DNA from: Cetobacterium sp. 2A
Lineage (GTDB): Bacteria; Fusobacteriota; Fusobacteriia; Fusobacteriales; Fusobacteriaceae
DNA: 64,000 nucleotides
Reading direction: 5' to 3'
Assembly: GCF_014250685.1 (NCBI RefSeq)
Contig: NZ_JACFAJ010000005.1
Location: forward strand, 113,337-177,336
Below are positions 644 through 8,958 of this stretch, one piece after another. The notes under the pieces are model-generated. The model ran no database searches and was not told where the DNA came from. It saw only the letters and a program-made list of their open reading frames with translations. Position 1 is the first letter of the stretch, and the number at the start of each line of letters is the position of its first letter. Position numbers and translations under genes: made by a program.

Positions 644-671
644 TTGAAAAAAATTATTAAAAAACTATAAT
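644..671 (+). promoter_or_regulatory. Predicted sigma70 promoter of the pilus operon
   Basis: TTGAAA (644-649), a 16-nt spacer and TATAAT (666-671) lie about 100 nt upstream of the first pilin start, in the regulator/pilin intergenic region. The match to consensus is good, but AT-rich DNA gives chance hits, so this is a prediction. Confidence 0.5.
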
Positions 672-694
672 TATTTTCAAATTTACTAGATGAC

Positions 695-715
695 TACTAA
701 GAATTATACTTAGTA
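695..715. promoter_or_regulatory. Inverted repeat in pilus operon leader, candidate operator
   Basis: TACTAAG (695-701) and CTTAGTA (709-715) form a perfect 7-bp inverted repeat around AATTATA. It lies just downstream of the predicted start of transcription, where a repressor site or leader hairpin would act. No regulator is proven to bind it. Confidence 0.35.
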
Positions 716-769
716 TACGGGGAATTCCTTTCTACTTGAAAGAAAATAAAAAAATTAGGAGGAAATTTT

Positions 770-1300
770 ATGAAAAAAATTATTTTTGCACTATTTGCCC
801 TTTCAGCTCTAAGTTTTGGAGCAGAACCAGTAGACACGGCAACTGTACCTGTAAATGTGTCTGCAATTGTTTCTGGAAGCCCAGCAACTCAACTTGTTAT
901 TGTTGATGAGGGTGGAACCGCAGTAATAAATAGGATAGATATAACTCATGAGCTAACTGTAGATGACCAAGGTATAATTACAACAGCAGCCAATCTTGTT
1001 GAAACATCAAAATTTAAAGTAAGTAGAGGAACCCCAGGAACAGTTGTAATAGGAAAAGGGAAATTAAATTTTGCATTATCAGCAAAAAAAGTAAGTTTAG
1101 AAGGAGTATTAGAATCTGAACTTACCATACCTGAATCATTGGATATAACTACAGATATAAGTAGAACAGAAGCAATATCACTAGTAAGTACTATATCTCA
1201 AATAATTGAAGGTAGCATAATTGAAGCTAAAACATATACGGGAGCACCATCTAATTTAACAGTTACTTATGATAAAACAATTACTCCTCCTACTCCTTAA
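770..1300 (+). CDS. Major pilin-like subunit of chaperone-usher pilus
   Basis: A 176-aa secreted protein with a clear signal peptide (MKK, hydrophobic core, cleavage near SFGA-EP). The mature N-terminus (VDTATVPVNVSAIV, about residues 21-34) alternates hydrophobic residues as a donor strand would, and the C-terminus ends in a beta-strand-like NLTVTYDK. Both segments match the pilin-like protein at 7579-7980 (VDSARIPINIKVTVV and NLSITWEK), so the two are paralogues. It is the first gene of the operon, has a strong AGGAGG ribosome site and is separated from the chaperone gene by a stable hairpin, all typical of a highly expressed major subunit. The role is inferred from operon position and paralogy; I recognise no close named family. 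Confidence 0.6.
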   Translation: MKKIIFALFALSALSFGAEPVDTATVPVNVSAIVSGSPATQLVIVDEGGTAVINRIDITHELTVDDQGIITTAANLVETSKFKVSRGTPGTVVIGKGKLNFALSAKKVSLEGVLESELTIPESLDITTDISRTEAISLVSTISQIIEGSIIEAKTYTGAPSNLTVTYDKTITPPTP

Positions 1301-1317
1301 TAAATGTCTTTAAAGTA

Positions 1318-1338
1318 GAAAGTGACTATGTCACTTTC
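1318..1338 (+). promoter_or_regulatory. Intercistronic hairpin after the first pilin gene
   Basis: GAAAGTGAC (1318-1326), loop TAT, GTCACTTTC (1330-1338): a perfect 9-bp stem 18 nt after the pilin stop. It is followed by CTCTTC and not by a T-run, so it looks more like an mRNA-stabilising or partial-attenuation hairpin than a full terminator. Such elements raise pilin output relative to assembly genes in other pilus operons. Confidence 0.55.
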
Positions 1339-1371
1339 CTCTTCAAAAATATTTATTAGGGGGGGGCAAAT

Positions 1372-2067
1372 ATGAAAGGAATTTTAATTTTTTTAGTTTT
1401 ATTTAAAGTAACATTTTCATATATAAACATTCATCCAACTTATTTTGATAAAAGAATTGATGAGGATGGAAGTTATCAAGAATATACACTTTACAATAAA
1501 AAAAATGAACCCGTAATGTATAAGATTTATACTGAGGAGGACAAAATGAATCCAGATGAAATGTATAAATGGATTGAATTTTATCCACGTTCTATTATTT
1601 TAAAACCTGGAGAGACTGGGAAAATCCAAGTCCATATTAAATCTCCATCTAATGTAAAATCTGGCGAATATTTCGCAGTTCTTGGAGTTAAAGAACTTCC
1701 TGTTTTTGAGAAAGTGGCTAAAGAAAATGGAGCTGGAGTAAGTATTTTTACAAATTTCAGATTAATTATATCTGGATATGTTGGAAATATAAATCCAAAA
1801 CTTAAATTTAAAAATCTAAGTTTAAAAAATCTAGAAAATGATATATCTATAGCTGGGGAAGTTAGTAATTTAGGAAAAAGAAAAGGGAAATTTGAGCTTT
1901 ATTTGGACGAGTATTATCTTGGGAATCTTAAGGTTCTTTCAAATGAAAATTTAAATCTTGATAAGTTAGGATTTATTTATTCAAAAGATAAGGCATTTAA
2001 GATACCTAAAAATTTGATTCTGAAAGATTATGAAACTAAAAAAGAGGTTGGGAGAATAAAACTTTAA
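1372..2067 (+). CDS. Periplasmic pilus assembly chaperone 1
   Basis: A 231-aa protein with an N-terminal signal peptide (cleavage about residue 16-18) and a pilus-chaperone-like Ig fold. Residues 18-105 carry the pattern HPTYFDKRID..YTLYNKK....KWIEFYPRSIILKPGE, matching the first chaperone domain with its PxxxxLKPGE-type strand. Residues about 140-231 form the second domain. It is clearly homologous to the second chaperone at 6781-7500 (HISPDGFGKRIDNDEG, KWIEFEPKYMTIKEGE). It would hold pilin subunits in the periplasm and hand them to the usher encoded next. An 8-G ribosome binding site (1359-1366) precedes the ATG. The family call rests on fold-like motifs and operon context. Confidence 0.7.
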   Translation: MKGILIFLVLFKVTFSYINIHPTYFDKRIDEDGSYQEYTLYNKKNEPVMYKIYTEEDKMNPDEMYKWIEFYPRSIILKPGETGKIQVHIKSPSNVKSGEYFAVLGVKELPVFEKVAKENGAGVSIFTNFRLIISGYVGNINPKLKFKNLSLKNLENDISIAGEVSNLGKRKGKFELYLDEYYLGNLKVLSNENLNLDKLGFIYSKDKAFKIPKNLILKDYETKKEVGRIKL

Positions 2068-2085
2068 AGAAATATGGGGGAAGTT

Positions 2086-4686
2086 ATGATGAAAAAAATA
2101 TGGGGAATATTTTTTATATTTTCTCTTTTCTTCTCGACTTATGCCGATGAAAATTTAACAATAGAAAGAGTTGAAGAGCTTAGAAAGAAAAATATTATAT
2201 CGGAAGAGGATTATAATTTTTTAAAAGCTGAATTGGATGGTAAGTTACAGGAAAAAAATTACTATGACTTAATTGTAAATAGATCTTCTATAACTACAAA
2301 ATATCCGATTATTCGTATGAATGACAGATATTATTTTTCATTATTGAAATATTTTGAAGGGATAGAATTTAAAAATTATAGACTTGAAAATAATAGTTTA
2401 AATATGTTTTTAGGAAAAAGATTAAAAAATGTTGTTATTGATTTTAATAAAGGTAAAATTGTTGGATTAGAAAAAACAGTTTTAAAGCAAGATGAGTATT
2501 TTATAGAAAATGGAGACTATTTTTTAGAATCAGATTTATTTAGAGATATATTTTTGGACGGTTTAGATATAAATGATAGTAGAATGAAAATTAGTATGTC
2601 TACAACATATTTAATACCTAAAGATATAAGAAATGGTTTAAAATCATCTGAAGAAAAAATAGAGAATGAAAATTCAATGGATGATTTTTATTATACCAAC
2701 TCTAGAGAGTTATTTGATATAGGATATATGAGGTTTAATTTTGATAAAACTTTTACAAAGAGTGATGGAATTAAAGACAATGATTGGTCAGGGTTATTAG
2801 AATACCAAGGACCGATGTTATATGGAGAATTGACAACCACTTATGATGTTAGAGAATCATTATTAACAGGAGCTAATCTTTATTATCCTAATTTACCTAA
2901 CAATCATTATTTAGAACTAAGAGGAACTAATATAGATAATGATTATTGGGAAAAATCAATTATTTTTGAAAAAGATAAGGGATATTTTGAAGATGGTAAA
3001 AAATTTATAATCAAAGAAAATGTTCCAATTGGCAGTAGAGTTGAGTTAGTTTATATGGGAGCAACGATAGCTATAGCTAATGAAGAAAATGGTATTGTAG
3101 AATTTAGTAATAGTGAAATAAAAAGCGATAGAGAGTATATGTTAAGAATTCATGCAAAAGATGGACAAATATTCACTCGGATAATTCAAACAAGTGACGA
3201 TTTTAATCAACAAAACAAAGGAGAATTTCAGTATAAGCTTTTTGCTTCTGAAGACAAAGAATCTAGTAAAAATATATTAGAAATAGGAACTTTTTATGGA
3301 GTTACAGAAAATCTAACAGTTGGAGGAGATTACTATAAAACTCCAGAACTGATTGATGATAAATATATATATGTAGAACGTGCAAAAGGAGAAATTGTTT
3401 ACAGTAACTTTTTACGTACTTATCCGTATACTTTAGTTTTAGGTGGCGAAGAAATATTAAGTCCTGATATTTTTGATGAAACTACAACTTTTGAAGGACT
3501 TTTCCAAATAAAAATTAATGATTTAAAACTTCGTTATGAAAATGGATATTATAGTGAATATTATGATAGTAAAAAATCTGAAGGATTCACTGTTCAGTAT
3601 ACTCCTTGGAATTTCTTAAGATTGGATTATTCATATCAAAGATTAGAAAAATATAATGGTGAAAAAGAAAATGGAGCAGAAATAGACATTGAATTTACAA
3701 AAAATTTTAAAAGAATTTTAACTACTTTCCAATTTGAAAAAAATATAGAGGACGAAAAACGATATTCTATAAATCTTTACTACACAGGATATAGAGACTA
3801 TTCTATGAGATGGAATAACTCAATAACTGAGGCAGGTGGAGATTTTGAATCTACTATAGAACTATATAATAGAGCAACTAGAAATGGGCTAGACTATTCT
3901 TTTGAGCTGTCATACAGTGAACTTCAAAAAGAAAAATTTGTATTTAAAGTTAGTATAGACTACGATAACTGGTTTAATTTCGATATGTTTGCTGGAGATA
4001 AAGGAAACTATGACGTTTCAGTTGGTCTTGATAGAATTGTAGATCTTAAAAATATAACTAAGCCACTTGAAAGTATGGATAGTTCAAGAGTAAAAGTTAT
4101 AACTTTCTTAGATGAAAATAACAACAATAAATTTGATGACAATGAAGATTTTATTGGAAATGTTGAAGTGAAAATAAACCAAGAGACAAAATTGACTAAG
4201 CAAAATAAACCAACTTACTTCTACGGAGTTCCAAATGATATTTTATATAGCTTTGAACCTAAAGTTAGAAAGCCTGGTTATGACACAATCAATAGTAAAT
4301 TTTCATTAAAAGGTAAACATGGTGGAAATATTGAAGCTTATATTCCAATAAAGCCTCTGTTTACAATTTCTGGAAATCTTTTACTAGAGGATTCTACAAG
4401 GACAGATATTTATGAAAAGGTAGTAATAAAAATAAAGGATGATAATAATGAAACTGTTTCTGGAACGGTCCCTGATGAGTTTGGAAGCTATGATATAAGT
4501 GGTTTAAGAGCAGGAAAATATATATTTGAGATATCATCTTTTGGAAATGAAGAATCATTATTGGTTCAAACTCCAATAGAGGTTAAATATGTAAAAGGAC
4601 AAAAGAATATAATGGTAATAAACTCAAAATTTATTGGAAATAAAATTGTTTTATTAGCGGGGGAAAAGAATGAGACTAAAAACTAA
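2086..4686 (+). CDS. Outer-membrane usher of chaperone-usher pilus
   Basis: About 866 aa, close to the usual length of alternate (CS1/CFA-type) ushers. After a signal peptide there is a short charged helical segment (about residues 20-48: VEELRKKNIISEEDYNFLKA) that resembles a SHOCT motif, then an N-terminal domain, a long beta-rich middle with alternating aromatic strands (about 210-660) fitting an outer-membrane barrel, and C-terminal periplasmic domains. Residues near 680 contain FLDENNNNKFDDNED, an Asp/Asn-rich Ca2+-loop-like motif of the SdrD/Cna-B type. The first ATG (2074) lies inside the G-rich Shine-Dalgarno; ATG 2086 or 2089, just before the signal peptide, is preferred. Its 3' end overlaps the next gene by 17 bp. 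It would secrete and anchor the pilus. Confidence 0.7.
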   Translation: MMKKIWGIFFIFSLFFSTYADENLTIERVEELRKKNIISEEDYNFLKAELDGKLQEKNYYDLIVNRSSITTKYPIIRMNDRYYFSLLKYFEGIEFKNYRLENNSLNMFLGKRLKNVVIDFNKGKIVGLEKTVLKQDEYFIENGDYFLESDLFRDIFLDGLDINDSRMKISMSTTYLIPKDIRNGLKSSEEKIENENSMDDFYYTNSRELFDIGYMRFNFDKTFTKSDGIKDNDWSGLLEYQGPMLYGELTTTYDVRESLLTGANLYYPNLPNNHYLELRGTNIDNDYWEKSIIFEKDKGYFEDGKKFIIKENVPIGSRVELVYMGATIAIANEENGIVEFSNSEIKSDREYMLRIHAKDGQIFTRIIQTSDDFNQQNKGEFQYKLFASEDKESSKNILEIGTFYGVTENLTVGGDYYKTPELIDDKYIYVERAKGEIVYSNFLRTYPYTLVLGGEEILSPDIFDETTTFEGLFQIKINDLKLRYENGYYSEYYDSKKSEGFTVQYTPWNFLRLDYSYQRLEKYNGEKENGAEIDIEFTKNFKRILTTFQFEKNIEDEKRYSINLYYTGYRDYSMRWNNSITEAGGDFESTIELYNRATRNGLDYSFELSYSELQKEKFVFKVSIDYDNWFNFDMFAGDKGNYDVSVGLDRIVDLKNITKPLESMDSSRVKVITFLDENNNNKFDDNEDFIGNVEVKINQETKLTKQNKPTYFYGVPNDILYSFEPKVRKPGYDTINSKFSLKGKHGGNIEAYIPIKPLFTISGNLLLEDSTRTDIYEKVVIKIKDDNNETVSGTVPDEFGSYDISGLRAGKYIFEISSFGNEESLLVQTPIEVKYVKGQKNIMVINSKFIGNKIVLLAGEKNETKN

Positions 4687-5182
4687 AATATTTGGGATGT
4701 TGTTAATTGTTTTTTCAAGTCTGTATACTCAAGAAAATTCTTCAGAAGTTCCAATGATTCCGATGGTCCCAATGATTCCAGCAACTCCTAATGAAAAAGT
4801 TGATGATATTACAAATAAAAAAAGAGTTTTGGAAAAGGTTTCAACTATAATGGGGAAAATGGAAGCAGATATCATAGTTCCGATGGAAATAATTTCAGAT
4901 GTCGATATAAAAGCTTTAGTAATAGACGATGAAAATTTAGAGATTCCGTTTGATATTGAATTTAATAAAAAACCAGATATAAAAAATTATTATTCATTGA
5001 ATTTTTCGAGTACTCAGTTAGATATTGATGATGATGGTATTATAGATACTGAAATTTTTTCTCCAAAATTTGTGAATGAAAGAGTTACAAAAGATAATTA
5101 TGTTAAAATTACAGGAAAAAATATTTCTAAAGAGGGAACCCATAAAAAAAGAGTTTATATAACTGTAGAGGTGAGAGAATAA
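4670..5182 (+). CDS. Secreted minor pilus subunit, putative
   Basis: A 170-aa secreted protein with a signal peptide (about residues 1-20). A Pro/Met-rich linker follows (PMIPMVPMIPATP, about residues 29-41), then a beta-rich domain with an Asp-rich loop DIDDDGIIDTE that could bind Ca2+. The start ATG sits inside the usher gene's 3' end with a GGGGG ribosome site, and its stop overlaps the next start (TAATG), so translation is coupled. I do not recognise the family. A minor pilin or adaptor is inferred because it sits between usher and pilin-like genes and is exported. An accessory periplasmic factor is the alternative. Confidence 0.45.
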   Translation: MRLKTKIFGMLLIVFSSLYTQENSSEVPMIPMVPMIPATPNEKVDDITNKKRVLEKVSTIMGKMEADIIVPMEIISDVDIKALVIDDENLEIPFDIEFNKKPDIKNYYSLNFSSTQLDIDDDGIIDTEIFSPKFVNERVTKDNYVKITGKNISKEGTHKKRVYITVEVRE

Positions 5183-5610
5183 TGAAAAAAATTATAACAT
5201 GTTTCCTATTTGTAATTTCTCTAACCTCTTTATCTGAGGTTAAAGTAACTTTACGTGAACCTTTAAGTTTTAAAGAAATGAGATCTGGTGAAATATCTTA
5301 TGAAAATGTTGCAATAGCTGAAGGAATAATTGAAATTGTAGGAGAAGATGAAGATATAGGGAAATTGATTTCTTTTGAAATACCTCCCTATGGAATGGTT
5401 ACAAATAAAAAATGCTGGTTAAAGATATCTAAGATTGTTTTTGAAAAAAATACTAAAGAGATTATTTTATCTAGTAATAAACATCTGATAAAAGTTTATG
5501 GATTTTTAGATAAAAAAGAAATTTCAAAAAATAAAAATGCTGATATAGCTGAGGGGAAGTATATAGGGTATCTTCCAATAAATTATTCAGTTTATAGTAA
5601 AGAGATGTGA
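5182..5610 (+). CDS. Minor pilin-like subunit (DUF4402-like fold)
   Basis: A 142-aa secreted protein with a signal peptide ending near residue 18. The mature part has the pattern LSFKEMRSGEISYENVAIAEG....ISFEIPPYG and ends in GYLPINYSVYS, resembling DUF4402-type pilin domains (an FG/G motif near the start and a closing beta strand ending in Tyr). It starts 1 bp inside the stop of the preceding gene and is followed 4 nt later by the putative tip adhesin. A structural minor subunit or tip adaptor fits. The call is by pattern only. Confidence 0.45.
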   Translation: MKKIITCFLFVISLTSLSEVKVTLREPLSFKEMRSGEISYENVAIAEGIIEIVGEDEDIGKLISFEIPPYGMVTNKKCWLKISKIVFEKNTKEIILSSNKHLIKVYGFLDKKEISKNKNADIAEGKYIGYLPINYSVYSKEM

Positions 5611-5614
5611 GGCT

Positions 5615-6781
5615 ATGAAGAAAATATTTTTAGTTTTTATAACTGTAATTAATATTTTATTTTCTAAAGATTTTATATCAGCCCCTAAAATGTATAAGCC
5701 GGCAGAAATGAATATAGAAGTAACTAAAATAAAGACAAAATCGACAGATATGTATATTGATAAAGTTAATAAGAAAATTTATAAAGAGTTTGAAGATATC
5801 AAGGAAAGAACAACAAAAAAAAATCTTTATATTACAACTTCTTTAGAGAGAAAAAATAAAAAAATAGTTTCTGAGTTGGAATATGAAATTTTAGAATATA
5901 ATGGTAAAAAAATTCTTGTAATAGACTATGAAAATGAACCAAGTGAAATTTATTTGTGGATTATTGAAAACGAGAGTATAAAAAATATATACAAAGGGAA
6001 TTTAATGGATCGTGCAGAAGGAATATCTCCTTTTGCTTGGATTTCAAGAACAATAAATATGAGAGTCCTTAATTCAGATGTAACTAATCAAGAAATTAGT
6101 ATTCACGCAGACAGAAGTATTAATTATAATTCTGGATATTTCCAAGTAGTTTCAGGAATGTTAAATGGAATGTTTTTTGTACCTGGAATTAAGAAAGTTA
6201 GTGAAATTGTAAATGGAGAAAAAAAAGAATTATCACTTAGCGGTCAGAAATATACAACATCAAATAGGTTCGAATTTAGTATTGATATCAGTGGTTCATG
6301 GGGAGAATCTGTCAGAACTTTAAAAATAAAATCATCTGAAGGTTTAGAAAGTGGAGTTTCAATTTCAATAGAGTACTCTCATGGTAGACTTGAAATATAT
6401 GAGGATATAATTAATTTTTTACCATCTAAATTTGAAATATTAAGTATATCAGATATGGACTTTGGGACTTTACAAAAAGGAACAGTAAATAATAGTCCAA
6501 TTACAAAAGCAAATATAAAGGTAAAAAGTACAATTGGGACAGTACTTTCCTTTAAAGTTGTGGATACTTCTATAGAGTTAGGTCGTGATGGTATGGAAGA
6601 AAGTTCGAAAATAACTGTTAATTCATTTACGGTAGAAGGTGAATCGGCTCCAACAAATAATATATATGAATATGAAATATCTGGAATTGCAAACGTACCA
6701 AGTAATGCACTTGATGGGAATTATAGTGGTGTTTTATATACAGAACTGACTTTGTCAGATATAAAGGGAGGGAAATTTTAA
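5615..6781 (+). CDS. Putative pilus tip adhesin, two-domain
   Basis: 388 aa with a signal peptide (about residues 1-17), the largest exported non-usher protein of the operon. Residues about 20-270 form a unique domain. Residues about 275-388 form a pilin-like domain beginning ISDMDFGTLQKGT and ending in beta strands, similar in layout to the DUF4402-like subunit before it. An N-terminal receptor domain followed by a C-terminal pilin domain is the classical plan of tip adhesins such as CfaE or FimH. Its stop overlaps the start of the second chaperone by 1 bp (TTTTAATG). The ligand is unknown. A minor structural subunit is the alternative. Confidence 0.5.
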   Translation: MKKIFLVFITVINILFSKDFISAPKMYKPAEMNIEVTKIKTKSTDMYIDKVNKKIYKEFEDIKERTTKKNLYITTSLERKNKKIVSELEYEILEYNGKKILVIDYENEPSEIYLWIIENESIKNIYKGNLMDRAEGISPFAWISRTINMRVLNSDVTNQEISIHADRSINYNSGYFQVVSGMLNGMFFVPGIKKVSEIVNGEKKELSLSGQKYTTSNRFEFSIDISGSWGESVRTLKIKSSEGLESGVSISIEYSHGRLEIYEDIINFLPSKFEILSISDMDFGTLQKGTVNNSPITKANIKVKSTIGTVLSFKVVDTSIELGRDGMEESSKITVNSFTVEGESAPTNNIYEYEISGIANVPSNALDGNYSGVLYTELTLSDIKGGKF

Positions 6782-7500
6782 TGAGAAAAATAATATTATC
6801 AATTTTTATATTACTGATTTCAATTATATCTTTTGGGTTTCATATAAGTCCTGATGGATTTGGAAAAAGAATAGATAATGATGAGGGATTTCAAGAATAT
6901 ACTTTTAAAAATATGACTGGAAAAACTATAAGATATAAATTTGCTGTATTGCCTGGAAAAAATCCTGAAAAATCGATGGACAAATGGATAGAGTTTGAAC
7001 CTAAATATATGACAATAAAGGAAGGTGAGAGTAAGAAATTAAAATTATATGCAAAATCTCCAGAAGGGGCTAAAGAAGGAGATTATAATTTTTATTTAGC
7101 AGTTAATTCTGTAACAGTTCCAGGAGTATTAGATGAAAAAAAAGAATCTGTAGTAGCTGGAACAACAGTTGGTATAAATATGAATATTGAAATGTTAGGT
7201 TGGGTTGGAGATTTACCAGCAAAACTAAAATTAGAAAAATATGAGATCTATGAGAAAGATGGAAAAGTAATGTTTAAAGGATTTGTAAACAACCATACTG
7301 AAAAAAGATTTGTACGTTATATGATTGAGGTAATCGGGAACCGTGGAGAAAAAGCAACACTCTTAGGGGGAGTTTTACCTGCTAAGAAAACTAATGAATT
7401 TGATGTAGAAATTCCACAATTTAAGAAAAAAAGTGATGTATGGAAAATAGAAGTGAGAGAAACTTTAGATAGAAATTTAATACAGACTATAAAATTATAA
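6781..7500 (+). CDS. Periplasmic pilus assembly chaperone 2
   Basis: A 239-aa paralogue of the chaperone at 1372-2067. Signal peptide about residues 1-19 (MRKIILSIFILLISIISFG), then the shared motif series HISPDGFGKRID, EYTFKN, KWIEFEPKYMTIKEGE and KSPEGAKEGDYNFYLAV. The second domain ends in VEVIGNRGEKATLLGG and KIEVRETLDRNLIQTIKL. Two different chaperones flanking one usher and the putative tip genes suggest division of labour, for example one for shaft pilins and one for tip subunits. It is the last gene before a weak hairpin and the second pilin. Confidence 0.7.
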   Translation: MRKIILSIFILLISIISFGFHISPDGFGKRIDNDEGFQEYTFKNMTGKTIRYKFAVLPGKNPEKSMDKWIEFEPKYMTIKEGESKKLKLYAKSPEGAKEGDYNFYLAVNSVTVPGVLDEKKESVVAGTTVGINMNIEMLGWVGDLPAKLKLEKYEIYEKDGKVMFKGFVNNHTEKRFVRYMIEVIGNRGEKATLLGGVLPAKKTNEFDVEIPQFKKKSDVWKIEVRETLDRNLIQTIKL

Positions 7501-7503
7501 AAT

Positions 7504-7529
7504 AGAGAGAGGATTTTTAAACTCTCTTT
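7504..7529 (+). promoter_or_regulatory. Weak hairpin between chaperone 2 and second pilin
   Basis: AGAGAG (7506-7511) pairs with CTCTCT (7522-7527) around a 10-nt AT loop, extendable by two weak pairs. It is short of a terminator (no long T-run) but may partly attenuate or stabilise mRNA ahead of the last pilin gene. Confidence 0.3.
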
Positions 7530-7578
7530 AGTATATGTTTGAAAACAAGGGGAAATAAAAGAAAAAGAAGTGATTAAA

Positions 7579-7980
7579 ATGAAAAGATTGTTATTGTTTT
7601 TTTCAATTTCTCTTACTGTCTTTTGTACTCAAACATATAACTCTGTAGATTCGGCTAGAATCCCGATAAATATTAAGGTGACTGTAGTTGAACCGAGTCA
7701 GCAATTAGTCGTATTAGACGAAACAGGAAATCAAAAAAGTTCATTCGATTTAGAAGATGATAGTGAAAATTTTTATATTCAAAGAGGAGCCGCAGGACCA
7801 GTTTTGAACGTATCTAAAGGGCGTTTAGATATGAATCTTGAAAATCCAGATTTAGAAGTAAAAAGCAGTAGTTTAACCACAGAAAATGGAATAACAAAAA
7901 TAGGGAATTCAATTTTAAAAAAATCCAACTCTTCTAAAGTATCTAATTTATCAATTACTTGGGAAAAAGAAGAGCAGTAA
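7579..7980 (+). CDS. Second pilin-like subunit, paralogue of the first pilin
   Basis: 133 aa with a signal peptide (MKRLLLFFSISLTVF, cleavage near the single Cys). The mature N-terminus VDSARIPINIKVTVVEPSQQ and the segment FYIQRGAAGPVLNVSKGRLD align with the first pilin (VDTATVPVNVSAIV, FKVSRGTPGTVVIGKGKLN). It is shorter by about 40 residues. A GTG three codons upstream (7570) could also start it, but ATG 7579 gives the cleaner signal peptide. The gene ends one base before a strong terminator, closing the pilus operon. A second shaft or terminator/anchor subunit is likely. Confidence 0.55.
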   Translation: MKRLLLFFSISLTVFCTQTYNSVDSARIPINIKVTVVEPSQQLVVLDETGNQKSSFDLEDDSENFYIQRGAAGPVLNVSKGRLDMNLENPDLEVKSSSLTTENGITKIGNSILKKSNSSKVSNLSITWEKEEQ

Positions 7981-8014
7981 AAAAAGGTCATGCTTTTTAA
8001 AGCATGACCTTTTT
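7981..8014. terminator. Bidirectional rho-independent terminator
   Basis: A perfect 15-bp stem (AAAAAGGTCATGCTT / AAGCATGACCTTTTT) with a TTTA loop lies between the converging pilus operon and solute-binding protein gene. A/T runs on both sides let it serve both strands. Confidence 0.9.
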
Positions 8015-8958
8015 TATATTTTTAAATCCCAAGCTCCTTCTACAGTTAAATCATGTAAAAATTTGACGAATTCAAAACTTTCTTCTGGATATTTAGAATT
8101 TTGACTGATACAGTATCCAAGTGAAATGAAAAATTCAGATTCATTTGAAAAAGTTTCAAGTATTCCAAAATTTGGTTTATAAAATTTGATTTCTTCAATA
8201 TCTGCAGCAATACCAATTATAAAAGCTACATTTCCACTAGCAAATGCTTCATATTTATTTTTAAAACCAAGTTCATTTATAGAAACAAATAGTTTTTCTT
8301 CTTCCATTTTCAAATAAAAATTTAGACGCTTATCATTTTCTAAACCTAGTTTGTTGATTGTATCTTTAAGATTAGTATATATTAAATTTTTTCCTAGAGG
8401 GATAACATTATTATTTTTTAATTTAACTAAGACATTTTTAAAATCCTCAAAGTTTTGGGGTTTCTCTATTTTGTATTTTTTGAGAATTTCTTTGTTGTAA
8501 AAAATGATTGAAGAATAAAATCCAGTTGGGTATGCATAAATTTTATCATTTTCTGAGAAGTGTTTCATAGTTTGTTTATAAATCATCTCATTTTTTTCAT
8601 ATTCTTCATATTTTTTAGTTAAATCTAAAATTCTATTTTTTTTGATATTAATTTTTGAAAAACTTGAACCAGATATGAAAACATCTGGTGGATTATTTGT
8701 TTCAAAGTCGTCATTTAATTCTTTTAAATAATCTGTCTTTTTTATATCAAGTTTTATTGAAATATTTTCATTTTTTTCTTCAAATTTTTTTATAACTTTT
8801 TCAAGTCTTGCTAAATGATTGTCTGTTAAACTTTCAAAAGCTACACGAATTTCTTTTATTTTATTATCAGATATATTATCATCAGAATTTTGAGAACAAC
8901 CTGTAAAAATAAAAAATATAAGATTTAAACTTAACGTTAAAAAGTTCATTTTTTTCAT
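8014..8958 (-). CDS. Extracellular solute-binding lipoprotein, family 1 type, short
   Basis: 314 aa. The signal peptide ends in lipobox FTGC (Cys20), so the mature protein is membrane-anchored. Motifs of family 1 carbohydrate-binding proteins are visible: an N-lobe strand IKEIRVAFES, the hinge-region block PPDVFISG, then YAYPTGFYSSIIFYNKEILKKYKIEKPQNFEDF, and a C-terminal YPEESFEFVKFL. The usual length is about 400-430, so this protein is short, mainly in the C-lobe. No ABC permease or ATPase is adjacent; it follows a MATE gene by 33 bp. It may work with the orphan ATPase at 62223-63356 or with permeases elsewhere, or act as a sensor. Ligand unknown. Confidence 0.75.
   Translation of the reverse strand: MKKMNFLTLSLNLIFFIFTGCSQNSDDNISDNKIKEIRVAFESLTDNHLARLEKVIKKFEEKNENISIKLDIKKTDYLKELNDDFETNNPPDVFISGSSFSKINIKKNRILDLTKKYEEYEKNEMIYKQTMKHFSENDKIYAYPTGFYSSIIFYNKEILKKYKIEKPQNFEDFKNVLVKLKNNNVIPLGKNLIYTNLKDTINKLGLENDKRLNFYLKMEEEKLFVSINELGFKNKYEAFASGNVAFIIGIAADIEEIKFYKPNFGILETFSNESEFFISLGYCISQNSKYPEESFEFVKFLHDLTVEGAWDLKI

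Follow-up and report, generated by a model that had tools for sequence, protein, structure and literature searches.

The 64,000-nucleotide stretch of the Cetobacterium sp. 2A genome analysed here (C9:113337-177336, hereafter the window; the genome comprises 2.59 Mb in 14 contigs, with a listed contamination of 5.51%) contains an eight-gene operon that, with high probability, encodes a predicted chaperone-usher machine likely assembling an adhesive surface pilus, with a predicted usher pore in the outer membrane and two predicted chaperones that likely stem from one old duplication. Predicted fold, synteny and transitive homology identify the machine as a chaperone-usher system, and we regard the operon type as a variant form of this pathway that most likely lies nearest to its non-classical side. 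All eight predicted + strand open reading frames, spanning 770-7980, were present as described in an earlier note on this DNA, and the operon is more than a chance arrangement, the same gene order recurring in related genomes. Its elements are the following:

770-1300, + strand: pilA, predicted major pilin (176 aa; position, N-terminal donor-like strand, downstream stem-loop)
1295-1361, + strand: stem-loop between pilA and chapA (folding energy of the gap region)
1372-2067, + strand: chapA, predicted periplasmic chaperone A (231 aa, two immunoglobulin (Ig)-like domains)
2074-4686, + strand: predicted outer-membrane usher (870 aa; fold prediction, family homology)
4670-5182, + strand: sub1, conserved exported protein with a DxDxDGxxD loop, predicted minor or adaptor subunit
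5182-5610, + strand: sub2, conserved exported protein, predicted pilin-like minor subunit
5615-6781, + strand: adh, predicted tip adhesin with a variable N-terminal part and a C-terminal pilin-like domain
6781-7500, + strand: chapB, predicted periplasmic chaperone B (239 aa; homology)
7570-7980, + strand: pilB, shorter pilA paralogue (136 aa from GTG; ATG at 7579 possible)

In the predicted model of the 870-aa protein, a predicted usher, DSSP assigned 24 strands to the barrel and placed the plug between strands 6 and 7, the defining usher architecture (PMC4356140; this source, like PMC4654587 and PMC4133393 below, is cited from excerpts), and its 16 best Foldseek matches were all FimD or PapC. 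Fold prediction therefore gave the usher barrel on which the earlier identification of this protein had been staked. The window usher had no match to the Pfam usher model PF00577 while three distant members of the same alignable family matched it over the cut-off, and the link by sequence is thus transitive. Searches with phmmer of the usher and chapA against PDB sequences, and an NCBIfam search of the window proteins, gave null or weak results; an hhalign comparison of the usher profile with single EcpC and single FimD sequences was null. The translation may start at the ATG at 2086, a near-identical database protein having 866 aa.

For chapA, structure comparison of the predicted model revealed the two-domain fold of PapD-like chaperones, and the protein is predicted to be a periplasmic two-domain chaperone. 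The chapB product is predicted to be a periplasmic chaperone by homology to chapA, with which it shares 31% identity over 156 aa (single-comparison E 1e-22). PapD_N was found in 8 of 27 members of the chaperone family at E 0.1 or better (best 5e-7). In the tree, chaperone A forms one supported lineage and chaperone B its weakly supported sister, and the two likely descend from one old duplication. The paralogous pair with a two-domain Ig fold proposed in the earlier note was thus recovered, by fold for chapA and by homology for chapB; its remark that a double chaperone departs from the standard one-chaperone plan needs correction, since such a pair is already known from the E. coli common pilus (ECP), whose genes run pilin, chaperone, usher, adhesin, chaperone (PMC4654587).

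Of 98 genomes from the phylum, 40 encode usher relatives, all in one family, and PF00577 found ushers in 8 of the 98. Among the matches listed, named usher relatives were all Cetobacterium or Fusobacteriaceae except one metagenome-assembled genome labelled Sarcina, and the named sub1 relatives, among 120 of 293, were Cetobacterium and Fusobacterium, in agreement with the fusobacterial setting supposed earlier. Sixty usher rows resolved into 36 distinct loci of the window type and 23 of a sister type, type II, L039 and L085 being counted as one contig on account of their shared length (5689) and gene content. A locus was classed as window type if sub1 follows the usher, and the presence of sub1 is therefore no independent finding; L027 and L093, truncated at contig ends, were assigned to this type by hand, and L025, L094, L095, L096 and L098 were counted as window type. 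Gene labels were assigned with fixed hidden Markov models, early iterative models having drifted between Ig-like families. A typical window-type locus encodes pilin, chaperone A, usher, sub1, sub2 and adhesin, together with the second chaperone, B. A pilB-like gene after chapB occurs in 2 of the 36 loci (the window and L022), so that bracketing pilins, previously taken as part of the plan, are rare and not the plan of the family. Adhesin candidates span 388 to 2129 aa and are very large in several loci. At the usher N-terminus, the predicted model of the window protein has an extra helical hairpin ahead of the usher N-terminal domain; an IS.EDY-like motif in this hairpin was present in 33 of 37 window-type rows vs 1 of 23 type II rows.

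Classical (beta, gamma, kappa, pi) chaperones such as PapD and FimC anchor the subunit via Arg8, which lies near the N-terminus and holds the subunit carboxylate, and a G1 lysine. In CsuC, EcpB and CfaA the C-terminus of the subunit is described as being bound by an arginine of strand F1, super-conserved in the alternate and archaic pathways, and CfaA has shifted counterparts of Arg8 and the G1 lysine (PMC4654587, PMC4133393). We read these anchor columns from an alignment of 26 chapA, 34 chapB and 27 type II chaperones with EcpB, EcpE and FimC. The F1 arginine column of EcpB and EcpE was basic in none of the chapA, 2 chapB and all 27 type II sequences; the FimC Arg8 column in 0/26, 0/34 and 15/27; and the FimC G1 lysine column in 2/26, 1/34 and 0/27, respectively. 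The window chapA and chapB themselves carry F and N (F1), Y and G (Arg8) and I and E (G1). At the aligned columns, window-type chaperones thus appear to have neither the Arg8 that marks the classical pathway nor the F1 residue of the alternate and archaic ones; the variant is not assigned to a named clade. Two observations speak against an entirely new anchor: in 24 of 26 chapA sequences the residue three columns past the Arg8 column is basic, and 25 of 26 carry K or R two columns ahead of the G1 lysine column (chapB, 3 of 34). A shifted equivalent of the Arg8/G1 pair in chapA is therefore possible, judging from the alignment. In chapB, an arginine lies four columns past the Arg8 column in 27 of 34 sequences.

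Nine of the 36 window-type loci have no full chaperone adjoining the usher. Eight of these (L029, L030, L031, L032, L100, L102, L103 and L104) carry instead, downstream of sub2, a gene for a chaperone comprising the first domain only (136-152 aa) or, in L104, a 491-aa fusion of the first domain to a WG-repeat protein; L105 has neither an usher-adjacent full chaperone nor a one-domain one. In a tree of N-domains, built on few columns, the eight one-domain chaperones cluster within chapA (99/91), whereas L091, a chapA row of poor coverage, was placed elsewhere. No second domain was recovered downstream of the seven non-fused cases, the best of 21 frames reaching E 0.1 against the second-domain model, vs 1e-5 to 2e-15 for six held-out chapA second domains; the distance from their end to the start of the next gene ranges from -14 to +45 nt. 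The other 27 window-type loci, some of them truncated at contig ends, gave no one-domain form of chaperone A. Another type of one-domain chaperone-like protein, 124-139 aa long, occurs in L029, L030, L031, L032, L101, L102, L103 and L104; the five copies in the tree (L029, L032, L101, L102, L104) cluster on their own near chapB. Small LysM-like proteins also stand beside the one-domain chaperones (L030:7227-7538, L100, L102, L103), the Pfam LysM domain being found in the L030 protein, the only one tested, which suggests a link to the cell wall. Among the open-access matches listed, the phrase single-domain chaperone was not found.

The low similarity to known pilins noted earlier was confirmed. 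The C-terminal domain of adh (approximately the last 105 residues, behind the variable N-terminal part), taken from four loci, matched type II pilins with 96% probability (E 4e-9; reversed control, 1.2%), which bears out its earlier designation as a putative adhesin. After removal of 20 N-terminal residues sub2 matched the same pilins at 66%, and pilA (1.1%) and sub1 (0.3%) had no profile support as pilins; a control from another family, the chaperone first domain, gave 11%. The untrimmed comparison (pilA 97%, sub2 94%, sub1 41%) was rejected as driven by shared signal peptides. We predict pilA to be a pilin from its position, an N-terminal VPVNVSAIV-like strand (our reading) and the structured gap behind it, not from profile similarity. 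The two end genes are paralogous, as had been claimed (23%, E 1e-8, signal peptide included); their identity as pilins is likewise predicted from position, the recurrent stem-loop and the N-terminal pattern, but was not borne out by profiles. DUF4402 (PF14352), which the earlier note had put forward as a check, was over the cut-off in none of the eight window proteins; it exceeded the cut-off in two type II proteins of L034 and gave a sub-threshold match in the type II operon that precedes the window. Profiles of sub1, sub2 and pilA against PDB, and searches of sub1 and sub2 family members against Pfam, were null or weak. The DxDxDGxxD motif, which we take to be a calcium-type loop, was present in all 30 sub1 rows scored (two rows being one contig).

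The region 1290-1371 folds at -32.1 kcal/mol (z -7.2; the pilA-chapA gap by itself, z -3.3), and of 24 such gaps after pilA examined in window-type loci, 22 had a z at or below -2 (mononucleotide shuffles). The predicted stem-loop likely lowers downstream expression relative to pilA, raising the share of pilA over the machine parts.

To place the operon among known systems, we compared it with the described clades. Like type 1 and P pili, it has the chaperone fold and a predicted usher with an N-terminal domain, a 24-strand barrel, a plug after strand 6 and C-terminal domains. It differs from them in that its profiles do not match single FimD and FimC sequences, in the FimC Arg8 column discussed above (basic in 0 of 60 window-type chaperones) and, in the predicted model only, in the lack of the strand 5-6 gating hairpin and of the barrel helix, besides the added N-terminal hairpin. 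An ordinary alternate (alpha, ECP/CFA-I-like) pilus, acquired or inherited, would account for the gene order, since pilin, chaperone, usher, adhesin and second chaperone follow one another as in ECP/Mat, an order identical to ecpA-B-C-D-E. The chaperone profile, compared with single sequences, also matches EcpE best of three (86%; EcpB 15%, FimC 0.4%), the chapA model ranks CfaA first and has its lowest root-mean-square deviation to EcpB (3.4) among the full-length pilus chaperones shown, and the displaced basic residues of chapA recall those of CfaA (PMC4133393). We nevertheless regard this explanation as improbable. The window operon differs from ECP in its extra sub1, sub2 and second pilin-like genes, its usher and pilin have no recognisable sequence similarity to those of ECP, and the F1 arginine column is basic in only 2 of 60 window-type chaperones. 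An archaic (sigma, Csu-like) origin with subsequent loss of the typical residues is a more serious contender, if still an unlikely one. CsuC is the first match of the chaperone profile, over parts of both domains; the sister type II operons retain the basic F1 column throughout and some encode DUF4402-type proteins (over the cut-off in L034); and archaic systems are those reported outside Proteobacteria, occurring in Proteobacteria, Cyanobacteria and Deinococcus-Thermus, with classical and alternate systems in beta- and gamma-proteobacteria (PMC4654587). Window-type chaperones, however, mostly lack the F1 anchor at its aligned column, and their operons differ from Csu in having two chaperones and extra subunits.

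A different possibility is that barrel and chaperones export and display a non-pilus surface protein, the adhesin candidate, with no polymeric shaft. The very large adhesin candidates of several loci, the failure of pilA to gain profile support and the LysM and WG-repeat partners of one sublineage are compatible with such a system, to which we give little credence: a pilin-like gene stands directly before chapA in most window-type loci, followed by the structured gap suggesting a higher dose, and the adhesin C-terminal domain is itself pilin-like. More tentatively than the assignment to a pilus, and with somewhat less than even confidence, we propose that window-type operons constitute a separate pathway class confined to Fusobacteriaceae, characterized by two anciently split chaperones with a new or shifted basic grip, and in one sublineage by a chaperone A that has dispensed with its second domain and in one case is fused to a WG-repeat protein.

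In the proposed working of the pilus machine, the subunits would be exported to the periplasm, as their N-terminal signal-like stretches suggest, where chapA and chapB would cap different subunits by lending a strand, a division of labour suggested by their fold and by their separate, retained lineages. Because the known anchors are absent at the aligned columns, the subunit C-terminus would be gripped via other or shifted basic residues, for instance the conserved basic pair of FxKRID. The tip adhesin, with its pilin-like C-terminal domain, would go to the usher first, with sub2 and sub1 next as adaptors; pilA would come last, polymerising by donor-strand exchange into the shaft, and pilB might be a minor or terminating subunit. 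As chaperone of the shaft pilin we favour chapB since, in the lineages where chapA has lost its second domain, no other full chaperone remains and the chapB gene sits upstream of the usher, on the same side as the pilin.

Such a family, with members in 40 of the 98 genomes as against 8 detected by the usher Pfam model, would widen the range given in PMC4654587, and may explain surface attachment by part of the Fusobacteriaceae. If the one-domain reading of chaperone A is true, the two-domain boomerang would not be required for subunit capping in every case. With twin chaperones having no known anchors at aligned positions, and natural one-domain chaperones, it becomes testable which chaperone parts are needed to hold and hand over a subunit. 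Among the open-access matches listed, judged by titles and abstract beginnings, no study of a chaperone-usher pilus in Fusobacteria was found; Cetobacterium was not found together with chaperone-usher, and Cetobacterium somerae was not named among the matches listed.

The junctions between the eight genes measure, in operon order, +71, +6, -17, -1, +4, -1 and +69 nt. The tight coupling described earlier was confirmed, but its characterization as mostly 1-17 bp overlaps was slightly overstated: three of seven junctions overlap, two have gaps of 4-6 nt, and real gaps occur only at the two end-gene junctions. Three further features flank the operon:

1-621, - strand: Mga-domain transcriptional regulator (464 aa, continuing beyond the window to C9:112563), divergent to the operon
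644-671, + strand: promoter-like site TTGAAA-16-TATAAT (consensus match only)
7980-8015, + strand: terminator-like hairpin with T-run (16 pairs)

The sigma-70-like site matches 11 of 12 consensus positions, and site and hairpin fit a single predicted operon; counts of promoter-like and terminator-like sites are close to shuffle means, each being merely consistent with an operon. The regulator matched Pfam Mga PF05043 (28.0 bits vs a cut-off of 21.1), and homologues stand divergently beside four more window-type loci (L022, L025, L032, L094).

A second chaperone-usher operon, of type II, lies ~4 kb upstream of the window (L020:5717-12368, C9:102716-109367), encoding in this order a chaperone, four pilin-like proteins, another exported protein, an adhesin-like protein and an usher (824 aa), with a MipA-family gene behind it. 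Type II operons such as this share with the window a homologous usher (17-20% identity) and chaperone; they differ in usually having one full chaperone, no sub1 or sub2, a basic F1 anchor column (27 of 27) and a few ushers matching PF00577. In type II loci L033-L037 and L106-L119 a gene of ~300 aa mostly stands beside the usher; in L034, the only one tested, it carries MORN repeats (PF07661), and a solute-binding-like gene lies upstream. A scan of the genome contigs gave one locus. The third usher operon of the same genome (L021:4942-15318, G000:C13) is of the window type; its chapB precedes pilA, and its adhesin candidate is larger.

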